A DNA stretch of 64,000 nucleotides from Streptomyces sp. NRRL S-646 (GTDB taxonomy: Bacteria; Actinomycetota; Actinomycetes; Streptomycetales; Streptomycetaceae), in assembly GCF_000720765.1 (NCBI RefSeq), contig NZ_JODC01000003.1, forward strand, positions 496,001 to 560,000, in the 5' to 3' direction. This document shows positions 17,127-47,989 of this stretch, piece by piece. Position numbers and translations under genes: made by a program. Position 1 is the stretch's first letter. The number at the start of each line of letters is the position of its first letter. The notes beneath the pieces were generated by a model, which was not told where the DNA came from, made no database searches, and saw only the letters and a list, made by a program, of their open reading frames with translations.

Positions 17127-17162
17127 CTACGCGCGTAGGCGTTGAGCCGCTACTCTCGACGC
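17127..17162 (+). promoter_or_regulatory. deoD promoter with shared palindrome
   Basis: Palindrome CTACGCGCGTAG (17127-17138) covers the -35 region; a -10 TACTCT (17151-17156) lies 6 bases before GTG 17163, so the message is probably leaderless. The palindrome recurs at deoC, add, the ABC operon and the BMP gene. Confidence 0.65.
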
Positions 17163-17987
17163 GTGAACGCATCTCTTCTTCCGGACGACATCCAGGGCGA
17201 CCCGCACGCCGCCGCCGACGCCGCCGCCGCGCGCCTGCGCGAACTGACCGGCGCCGAGACCCACGACGTCGCCCTCGTGATGGGCTCCGGCTGGGCACCG
17301 GCCGTGGACGCCCTCGGCGCACCCGACGCCGAGCTGCACGTCACCGAGCTGCCCGGTTTCCCGCCGCCGGCAGTGGAGGGGCACGGCGGCAAGATCCGCT
17401 CGTACAAGATCGGCGAGAAGCGGGCCCTGGTCTTCCTGGGCCGTACGCACTTCTACGAGGGCCGCGGTGTCGCCGCCGTCGCGCACGGCGTCCGTACCGC
17501 CGTCGCCGCCGGCTGCAAGACCGTGGTGCTGACCAACGGCTGCGGCGGGCTGCGCGAGGGCATGCGGCCCGGGCAGCCGGTGCTGATCAGCGACCACATC
17601 AACCTGACGGCGACCTCGCCGATCGTCGGCGCGAACTTCGTCGACCTGACGGACCTGTACTCCCCGCGGCTGCGCGCCCTGTGCAAGGAGATCGACCCGA
17701 GCCTGGAGGAGGGCGTCTACGCCCAGTTCCCCGGCCCGCACTACGAGACGCCGGCCGAGATCCGGATGGCCCGGGTGATCGGGGCGGACCTGGTGGGCAT
17801 GTCGACGGTCCTGGAAGCCATTGCGGCGCGGGAGGCGGGGGCCGAGGTGCTGGGTATTTCCCTCGTGACGAACCTGGCTGCGGGGATGACGGGCGAGCCG
17901 TTGAACCACGAGGAGGTTCTGCAGGCGGGGCGGGACAGCGCGACGCGGATGGGTTCGCTGCTGGCTCAGGTGCTCGGGCGGCTGTAA
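17163..17987 (+). CDS. deoD: Purine nucleoside phosphorylase
   Basis: Splits purine (deoxy)nucleosides with phosphate into base and (deoxy)ribose-1-phosphate. The 274-residue protein belongs to the trimeric type: phosphate-loop GSGWAP near 40-45, GRTHFYEG near 95-102, GPHYETPAEIR near 189-199 and the base-binding Asn in TNLAAG near 236-241. GTG 17163 fits a leaderless transcript. The next gene, a sugar-phosphate mutase, could convert the product to the 5-phosphate for deoC. No deoB is seen in the window. Confidence 0.94.
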   Translation: MNASLLPDDIQGDPHAAADAAAARLRELTGAETHDVALVMGSGWAPAVDALGAPDAELHVTELPGFPPPAVEGHGGKIRSYKIGEKRALVFLGRTHFYEGRGVAAVAHGVRTAVAAGCKTVVLTNGCGGLREGMRPGQPVLISDHINLTATSPIVGANFVDLTDLYSPRLRALCKEIDPSLEEGVYAQFPGPHYETPAEIRMARVIGADLVGMSTVLEAIAAREAGAEVLGISLVTNLAAGMTGEPLNHEEVLQAGRDSATRMGSLLAQVLGRL

Positions 17988-18010
17988 GGCAGTACTGCTC
18001 GGGGCCGGTG

Positions 18011-18090
18011 CGGCATATTCAGCCCGTCCGGCGTTTGAGGACGAGGCCCTTCGGGCCGAAGGGGGTCCTGGGGGCGCAGCCCCCAGGACC
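18011..18090 (+). repeat. Intergenic repeat R1, copy b
   Basis: TCAGCCCGTCCGGCGTTTGA and the following unit match copies a and c, ending in the hairpin CCTGGGGGCGCAGCCCCCAGG. It lies between deoD and the mutase gene, so the two may be only partly co-transcribed. Confidence 0.75.
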
Positions 18091-18123
18091 CGCACCACGA
18101 GACAACGAGAGGCTGACCCCGAC

Positions 18124-46748: not shown

Positions 46749-46788
46749 GGCTCGGCGAGGGGCTGTGGGAACCAGCCCTCGCCGAGCC
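46749..46788 (-). terminator. Terminator of the BMP lipoprotein gene
   Basis: GGCTCGGCGAGGGGCTG (46749-46765) pairs with CAGCCCTCGCCGAGCC (46773-46788) except for one extra G. It separates the BMP gene from the transporter operon, so each has its own promoter. Confidence 0.8.
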
Positions 46789-46811
46789 GGGGTTCGGCGG
46801 GAACCGTCAGA

Positions 46812-47873
46812 TCACGGGGCGGTCTTGACCTTGACGGTGCCGTCGACGATCTTCTTCTTCGCGGCGTCCAGCTGGGCCTTGATGTCGTCGATGAAGCCAC
46901 CGCTGGTGGCCAGGCCGACACCGTCCTTGGCGAGCGAGTAGGACTGGTTGCCGGTCAGCGGCTTGCCGTCGTGCACGGACTTGATGAAGTCGTAGACACC
47001 GACGTCCACGTTCTTGACCATCGAGGTCAGGATCGAGCTCTTGTACTTGGCCAGACCCGGGATGTTGTACTGGTCCGAGTCCACGCCGATGGCCCAGGCA
47101 CCCTTGACGCCGTTGACGGCCTCGATCGAGCCGTTGCCGGAGGAGCCGGCCGCGGCGTAGACCACGTCGGCGCCGTTGTCGAGCATGCCGGACGCGGCCT
47201 CCTTGCCCTTGTCGGGGCTGGAGAAGCCGGACAGGTCCGAGCCGTGGGTCAGGTACTGGACGTCGACCTTGACGCTCGGCTTGGTGTCCTTGACGCCCTG
47301 GACGTAGCCCGCCTCGAACTTCTTGATCAGCGGGGTGTCGACACCGCCGATGAAGCCGACGTGGTTCTTCTTGGTCTTCAGCGCCGCGGCGACACCGGCC
47401 AGGTAGGAGCCCTGCTCCTCGGTGAAGGTGATGCTGTCGACGTTCTTGGCGGTCGCGACCGAGTCGATGAGGCCGAAGTTGACCTTCGGGTACTTCGCGG
47501 CGACCTTGTCGACCGAGGTGGCGTAGGAGAAACCGACGGCCACGATCGGGTTGTAGCCGGCGTCCGCCAGGTCGGTCAGCCGCTGCTCGCGGTCGGCCTC
47601 GGTGTCCGAGTTCTTCGCGGTCAGCTCCTTGATGGAACCGCCGAACTCCTTCTCGGCCTTGTCGGCACCGCGCGCGGCGGAGTCGTTGAAGGAACGGTCA
47701 CCACGGCCGCCGACGTCGTAGGCGAGACCGATCTTGATGCCCTTGCCGCCGCCGGAGGAAGCGGAGGAGGACGCGTTGTCCTTCTCGGACGAGGTGCTGC
47801 CACAGGCTGTGGCAGTCAGTGCAAGAGCTGCGGTGGCGATACACGCAGCGGAAAGCTTGGCTACCCGGCGCAC
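46812..47873 (-). CDS. BMP-family nucleoside-binding lipoprotein
   Basis: Substrate receptor of the ABC system, 353 residues. Signal peptide VRRVAKLSAACIATAALALTATAC with lipidated Cys near 24, a Ser/Lys-rich linker, then the BMP fold (GIKIGLAYDVGGRGDRSFNDSAARGADKAEKEFG near 46-80; GVDSDQYNI near 260). Members bind purine nucleosides. GTG 47873 follows AAGGAG; the longer frame to 48035 is leader. Encoded upstream of the ATPase and permeases. Confidence 0.95.
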   Translation of the reverse strand: MRRVAKLSAACIATAALALTATACGSTSSEKDNASSSASSGGGKGIKIGLAYDVGGRGDRSFNDSAARGADKAEKEFGGSIKELTAKNSDTEADREQRLTDLADAGYNPIVAVGFSYATSVDKVAAKYPKVNFGLIDSVATAKNVDSITFTEEQGSYLAGVAAALKTKKNHVGFIGGVDTPLIKKFEAGYVQGVKDTKPSVKVDVQYLTHGSDLSGFSSPDKGKEAASGMLDNGADVVYAAAGSSGNGSIEAVNGVKGAWAIGVDSDQYNIPGLAKYKSSILTSMVKNVDVGVYDFIKSVHDGKPLTGNQSYSLAKDGVGLATSGGFIDDIKAQLDAAKKKIVDGTVKVKTAP

Positions 47874-47973
47874 GGGAGGCTCCTTCACCTGACCTGAGCG
47901 CCATGTCGGCGCTTCATGTGAGCACCTTGCCAGTGCTCGGGCCCGGACGCCCCTGCGGCGTCGGCTTCGCGGC

Positions 47974-47989
47974 ATCGTAACGCGCGTAG
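47974..47989 (-). promoter_or_regulatory. BMP gene promoter with shared palindrome variant
   Basis: On the minus strand CTACGCGCGTTA (47989-47978) matches 10 of 12 bases of the palindrome, with the central ACGCGCGT intact; a -10 TACGAT (47979-47974) overlaps its end. A leader of about 100 bases follows. Confidence 0.55.

Follow-up and report, generated by a model that had tools for sequence, protein, structure and literature searches.

A conserved palindrome at nucleoside-catabolism genes of Streptomycetaceae and its probable recognition by a LacI/GalR-family regulator

Which protein reads a 12-bp palindrome, CTACGCGCGTAG, that recurs at nucleoside-catabolism promoters of Streptomyces sp. NRRL S-646, and how far does the set of genes carrying it extend? 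The palindrome lies in a stretch of 64,000 nucleotides (assembly GCF_000720765.1, contig NZ_JODC01000003.1, positions 496,001 to 560,000; hereafter the window), where an initial annotation had described it at five promoters and named a neighbouring DeoR-family protein as one candidate regulator. That the palindrome is conserved regulatory DNA is nearly certain. Comparative analysis suggests, with a probability that we place at about 80%, that its 14-bp form, TCTACGCGCGTAGA, is the operator of a single LacI/GalR-family factor of the SCO4158 type, most likely repressing genes for the scavenging of nucleic acids. The evidence consists of the sites themselves, their position and conservation, the functions of their targets, the distribution of the regulator and an element in its promoter, all of which are supported by the data presented here.

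The five sites were recovered in the window at the positions first reported, with 0, 0, 0, 1 and 2 mismatches (Table 1), and the window contains no other copy with at most two mismatches; the accompanying statement that there is no other strong copy fails at the scale of the genome, which has two further exact copies, at a second adenosine deaminase gene (add2) and at a gene here called SecX. The number of sites with at most two mismatches in the window (five) is at chance level (mean of 4.21 in 100 shuffles), and thus the signal rests on the three exact copies (none in 300 dinucleotide shuffles), on their position and on their conservation. Repetition alone is not decisive, because another 12-bp palindrome is likewise found three times in the window. 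By reading of the sequence, the deoD operator lies 12 bp ahead of a -10-like TACTCT (17151-17156) and 24 bp ahead of the GTG at 17163, spanning about -36 to -25 of this leaderless start; the deoC operator lies one base ahead of a -10-like TATGCT (22978-22983); and at add a -10-like TAGAGT (34340-34335, minus strand) stands between operator and ATG (34328). The sites stand between the -35 and -10 elements or overlap them, in line with the initial annotation; their placement varies by promoter, which would be expected of a repressor rather than an activator.

Exact copies are distributed through the family and rare elsewhere in the class. With the palindrome sequence read backwards as a control pattern counted in the same genomes, 60 genomes of the same genus contain 226 exact copies vs 37 of the control, and 36 genomes of other genera of the family contain 98 vs 20; each of the 61 genomes of the genus sample has two to six exact copies. 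In the family sample 40 of 41 genomes have at least one; the exception, G069, carries CTACTCGCGTAG at deoC instead. Among the 148 genomes of the class sample, exact copies occur in 11/11 members of the genus and in only 5/137 others; at the seven sites in five genomes outside the family, no nucleoside gene was recognised with a 20-protein reference set and by reading. In one of these genomes (G182) an exact site precedes a gene of the sulfatase family whose product weakly matches nucleotide-pyrophosphatase. The outcome that would have spoken against the operator, a motif frequent in the genome but not enriched near nucleoside genes, or one not conserved at orthologous promoters, did not appear.

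Genes at the exact sites belong predominantly to one pathway. From fetched family loci, 119 distinct exact sites were collected, a non-random set in which sites outside the main cluster were purposely sought; 98 of them stand at four core genes or operons (deoD, 33; add, 28; the ABC transporter operon, 19; deoC, 18), which strongly supports the description of these sites as operator-like elements for nucleoside uptake and breakdown. Another 15 are at add2 (five), SecX (four), purN (three), a HAD hydrolase (two) and purSQL (one), but the reference proteins for these minor classes were drawn from earlier unassigned sites, and only the 98 core-gene sites are independent. In all, 113/119 sites were assigned; two of the remaining six are close to contig ends. 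Sites outside the pathway assignment include L044 (within a peptidase gene), L051 and L063, and one (L039) is tied to the pathway only loosely, by a CN_hydrolase gene 299 bp away. The five units spread over about 31 kb are indeed concerned with nucleoside uptake and breakdown, but the gene set extends well past this cluster. The one-mismatch variant at the ABC operon is the same in a second genome (G013), and many other genomes have the exact motif there. The weak two-mismatch site at the BMP-family gene is real, because the variant TCTACGCGCGTTA recurs near BMP genes in all six other genomes examined (G013, G091, G206, G098, G009, G018). At add2 the operator covers codons 3-7 in five genomes, and retention there of two rare codons, GCT and GTA (which make up 3.3% of the Ala and 2.4% of the Val codons of the window genes), suggests selection on the DNA.

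SecX, located at L016:10353-11798 (contig C1 of the same genome), has two sites at a distance of 23 bp, one exact and one with a single mismatch. Database names for it are 'hydrolase' or 'immune inhibitor A'; it has no Pfam match above cut-off and looks secreted from its N-terminus. Its place among the targets suggests a nucleic-acid-related enzyme.

Single imperfect sites need conservation to be believed, because the one-mismatch class is no commoner than its reversed control (figures below), and one was accepted only if a second genome had it at the corresponding position. Of the 22 one-mismatch sites of G013, all of which were read, nine, at eight genes, are common to the NRRL S-646 genome at pathway genes: the ABC operon; purS; an NCS2 purine permease; a CN-hydrolase gene beside an aminotransferase gene; a Tat-type metallophosphoesterase, with two sites in G013; a 5'-nucleotidase; a protein of the GmrSD_C/HNH type; and an Exo_endo_phos protein. 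Secretion of such targets was read from N-termini by eye and is a prediction. The remaining 13 of the 22 are intragenic, at unrelated genes, or conserved without assignment (L209, L214); intragenic one-mismatch sites (e.g. L132/L211, L141/L200) were regarded as chance. A second 5'-nucleotidase gene of NRRL S-646 (L138) has a one-mismatch site that was not found among the G013 one-mismatch sites. The half-site with its flank, ACGCGCGTAGA, is present in 22 copies vs 4 of the reversed pattern in the NRRL S-646 genome, and by reading 14 of the 22, with SecX counted, are at pathway genes (five of these 14 being exact copies); among the others of the 14 are candidate sites at genes for a ribonuclease of the guanyl type (PF00545), for an acid phosphatase (PF03767) and for a PLD-like protein. 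Two other genes were set aside. The gene at a double site (C5:715.6k), considered as an autoregulated regulator, has no Pfam domain, and the sites likelier serve the divergent Exo_endo_phos gene; a permease (C8:132406), which resembles a cytosine permease, was twice without a Pfam match and was not counted. In NRRL S-646 and G013 GTACGCGCGTAG is kept shortly upstream of a gene (L011/L214) that looks like rpoB.

LacI-family operators are CG-centred palindromes. The motif has this form (TCTACGC|GCGTAGA). LacI genes were scanned as possible regulators by looking for a site within 250 bp upstream of the helix-turn-helix of each of the 44 LacI genes of the NRRL S-646 genome. The half-site CGCGTAGA was found upstream of only one of them, at C11:457357-458376, outside the window, although a single match in about 11 kb is unsurprising by itself. 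The encoded protein has an N-terminal LacI helix-turn-helix (PF00356 over cut-off, 56.5 bits, at C11:457375) and a periplasmic-binding-protein-like effector domain with near full-length matches to CcpA, RbsR, PurR and LacI chains, and it is the only one of the 44 LacI proteins with the helix S-x-AVVSY. Its upstream neighbour is GlnR (PF21695), and by synteny it is probably the ortholog of Streptomyces coelicolor SCO4158. In the available part of a published study, SCO4158 appears as a LacI gene downstream of glnR that is without a known target and is conjectured to regulate glnR, and its product as abundant under phosphate limitation in both strains studied (PMC9739823).

The distribution of this regulator parallels that of the motif, as both are family-wide and rare elsewhere in the class: each of the 41 family genomes yields one match at E 1e-90 (65-100% identity), and homologs at E 1e-60 occur in 8/137 class genomes outside the family (41-45% identity). 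Its own promoter carries CGCGTAGA(C/A)T in 29 of 30 orthologous loci, 22-23 bp ahead of a fixed gene anchor, while the flanks differ; conservation of the element extends to a CGCG that lies upstream of the -10, and CGCGTAGA is also present in 8/10 glnR-linked loci of named Streptomycetaceae. Taken together, these sequence comparisons make a strong case that a protein of this type would recognise the palindrome.

Remote homologs extend the correspondence between helix and operator. CG-centred palindromes (e.g. TCTACTCGAATAGA, TCTAATCGTTTAGA) lie upstream of the eight homologs outside the family. The template TCTANNCGNNTAGA is exact upstream of two of these eight and within one mismatch upstream of three, as against 0/43 and 1/43 for the other LacI genes of NRRL S-646. 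A second test set comprised the best 80 of the further homologs, 74 with the helix S-T/V-AVVSYV and six with S-P-AVVSYV. Upstream of the former, TCTANNCGNNTAGA is exact in 10/74 and within one mismatch in 17/74 (shuffles, 0 and 0.0023); upstream of the latter, a TCAA..TTGA form is found within one mismatch in 5/6, vs 1/74 of the others, and the TCTA type in 0/6. Four of the exact cases are new in sequence (L350, L375, L387, L409), and in one of them, Kibdelosporangium philippinense (L387), the exact 14-mer precedes a LacI gene that is followed by RbsD/FucU and purine/cytosine permease genes. The pairing of S-T/V-AVVSYV with TCTA..TAGA and of S-P-AVVSYV with TCAA..TTGA may help to assign other actinobacterial LacI proteins.

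Three minor observations concern these homologs. The S-P-AVVSYV and S-T-AVVSYV proteins present a helix-operator swap, with TCAACACGTGTTGA-like palindromes upstream of most of the former (L334-L336, L347, L348, L377, L385, L402). A second LacI gene with the same helix is found in Kitasatospora and in some Streptomyces-labelled genomes (L361, L366, L370, L379, L380, L383, L397, L399, L400), with GTGTAGGCT before its start and no glnR marker inside the fetched flanks. In G182 a LacI homolog whose helix is almost the same (L340-L341) has genes for an MFS protein and an adenosine deaminase in its vicinity.

Several results weigh against assigning the palindrome to the SCO4158-type factor. One-mismatch sites, with exact copies included, are not enriched genome-wide (29 vs 41 of the reversed control in NRRL S-646; 25 vs 33, 42 vs 42 and 25 vs 19 in three relatives), and the site at the GmrSD_C/HNH-type gene lies within the first codons, where coding constraint could account for it. 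The site in the candidate's own promoter differs from the 12-mer by 2-3 mismatches and coincides in part with the -10 TAGACT, so that part of its conservation could be conservation of the promoter; CGCGTAGA is missing from 1/30 orthologs (L324) and from 2/10 glnR-linked named ones (L412, L422). The template TCTANNCGNNTAGA was fixed after the upstream regions of the eight outside homologs had been viewed, its free positions being chosen after L339; among its ten exact cases, L343, L345, L346, L369, L405 and L416 repeat earlier site sequences; five of the 17 homologs within one mismatch are SCO4158-type orthologs; and among the Arthrobacter-type homologs of the best 80 only L375 has such a site. 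Outside the family, the helix is shared by a homolog in G181 that has TCTAATCGTTTAGA upstream, though that genome is without an exact CTACGCGCGTAG; the G182 homolog is flanked by two exact copies at a distance of 14-17 kb, neither of them at a recognised nucleoside gene, and no such site stands upstream of the homolog itself.

These points leave some room, though not much, for another conserved regulator, of a different family, to bind the motif, the LacI promoter element being a coincidence of a conserved -10: the self-regulation scan covered LacI genes alone, and the element does overlap TAGACT. Its conserved part, however, reaches CGCG upstream of the -10, the helix of remote homologs correlates with their operators up to the exact 14-mer in Kibdelosporangium, and the LacI candidate and the motif share a matched distribution.

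The DeoR-family protein named as one candidate by position and family in the initial annotation would, if it bound the operator, recall enteric deo regulation, where E. coli DeoR controls the deo genes; it is present in 41/41 family genomes, and its gene is near deoD wherever both were seen. Nevertheless, this proposal was not borne out and we consider it quite improbable, since the promoters of its genes lack the motif (best matches with 3-5 mismatches in seven loci of other genera and with 4 in NRRL S-646), and since 11 of 12 non-family genomes with DeoR homologs (46-69% identity) have no exact copy (G204 has one), while the recognition helix is nearly unchanged in the ten homologs for which it was read. 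Three outside homologs adjoin a different ABC operon, and the window protein scores 72.7 bits against the 244-bit cut-off of the NCBIfam family for E. coli DeoR (NF007961). The objection that the same helix occurs where the motif does not applies in part to the LacI candidate as well, because of G181. By eye, promoters of the outside DeoR homologs (L153, L154, L156) contain repeated GATCG-like stretches, perhaps an operator of their own. Two further candidates were rejected: the TetR gene at 13156-13788 (PF00440), which was not seen between the DeoR gene and its neighbour in L082, L087 and L152, and BldD, set aside solely on the spacing of its consensus. An element acting through DNA structure, RNA or DNA modification in place of a protein operator, which the perfect 12-bp symmetry and the other thrice-repeated palindrome might suggest, is very improbable for sites that lie mostly at the starts of one pathway's genes, between or over -35 and -10 elements, and are missing from most of the class.

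For the SCO4158-type factor we propose the following mode of action. The protein would bind TCTACGCGCGTAGA between or over the -35 and -10 elements and, when bound, would most likely repress genes for scavenging external nucleic acids; binding, and repression over activation, are inferred. Predicted targets are secreted nucleases; nucleotidases; nucleoside and base transporters; adenosine deaminase; purine nucleoside phosphorylase; deoxyribose-phosphate aldolase; purSQL; and, in some genera, purNH. The factor is also predicted to control its own leaderless promoter through the weaker site, and a nucleoside, a base or a (deoxy)ribose derivative is the presumed ligand for release. That such a repressor runs a regulon throughout the Streptomycetaceae, beginning with the digestion of external DNA and RNA (by secreted nucleases, 5'-nucleotidases and phosphatases) and leading through nucleoside and base uptake to breakdown and de novo purine synthesis, with some operators in first codons as at add2, appears a fairly likely extension.

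As it develops, a Streptomyces colony digests part of its mycelium and, to our knowledge, control of the recovery of the released nucleic acids is poorly known. The predicted target list connects secreted nucleases and nucleotidases with uptake and purine synthesis; if this is true, the SCO4158-type regulator would couple the salvage of dead mycelium to development and to the production of antibiotics. A function is thereby proposed for the conserved regulator beside glnR, with an operator predicted base by base. No publication on this motif or regulon was found among the matches listed in the full-text literature searched, which leaves out most subscription journals, and a prior description is possible.

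LacI-family repressors of purine and nucleoside genes are already known, the enteric PurR and CytR with CG-centred palindromic operators among them; what would be new here is the operator and the unusually broad target list. The candidate matches the PurR and CytR models, and PurR structures, by sequence, but scores well below the equivalog cut-offs (177.3 vs 501 bits for PurR, NF007979; 164 vs 436 bits for CytR, NF008269), its operator differs, and its predicted targets, unlike theirs, include secreted nucleases and nucleotidases. RbsR is its top NCBIfam match, likewise below cut-off (185 vs 382 bits, NF047341), and a ribose operon was not noticed among the sites read; it also matches UriR at 120.5 vs 550 bits (NF051853). 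E. coli DeoR controls deoxynucleoside breakdown, as is predicted for the proposed regulator, but is of a different protein family. XdhR, tied to Streptomyces purine salvage and described, in the part of the article available, for xdh and actinorhodin genes (PMC6627660), belongs to the TetR family rather than the LacI family.

Table 1. Palindrome sites and associated genes in the window (positions counted from its first nucleotide)
Feature	Position	Strand	Basis or remark
Operator CTACGCGCGTAG, exact, at deoD	17127..17138	.	pattern scan of window
Operator CTACGCGCGTAG, exact, at deoC	22965..22976	.	pattern scan of window
Operator CTACGCGCGTAG, exact, at add	34345..34356	.	pattern scan of window
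Operator CTACACGCGTAG, 1 mismatch, at nucleoside-type ABC transporter operon	46720..46731	.	
Operator variant TAACGCGCGTAGa, 2 mismatches, at BMP	47978..47989	.	
deoD, purine-nucleoside phosphorylase	17163..17987	+	NCBIfam TIGR01698 above cut-off
deoC, deoxyribose-phosphate aldolase	22990..23955	+	TIGR00126 above cut-off
add, adenosine deaminase	33171..34328	-	NF006847 above cut-off
ABC transporter ATP-binding protein	45064..46578	-	true start possibly further upstream
BMP-family (PnrA-like) substrate-binding lipoprotein	46812..48035 (listed ORF)	-	PF02608
Cytidine deaminase, downstream of ABC operon	42256..42657	-	PF00383
deoA-like pyrimidine nucleoside phosphorylase	40892..42175	-	PF00591, PF07831
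DeoR-family protein, earlier candidate, not favoured	13909..14859	-	

Among the other window genes, the ABC ATP-binding protein has matches to many ABC ATP-binding families of NCBIfam, all 25 of those listed falling below the respective curated cut-off, and the BMP protein likely starts inside the listed open reading frame (ORF), near 47888. The window scan found no palindrome copy with at most two mismatches near the cytidine deaminase gene or near the deoA-like gene. Divergent from add, at 34442-35203, is a gene whose product matches hydrolases only weakly (PF12146, just under cut-off); genes of this type are divergent from add in several genomes (e.g. L018, L028, L031, L033, L125, L127) and may share its control, because they start about 85-135 bp from the add operator.

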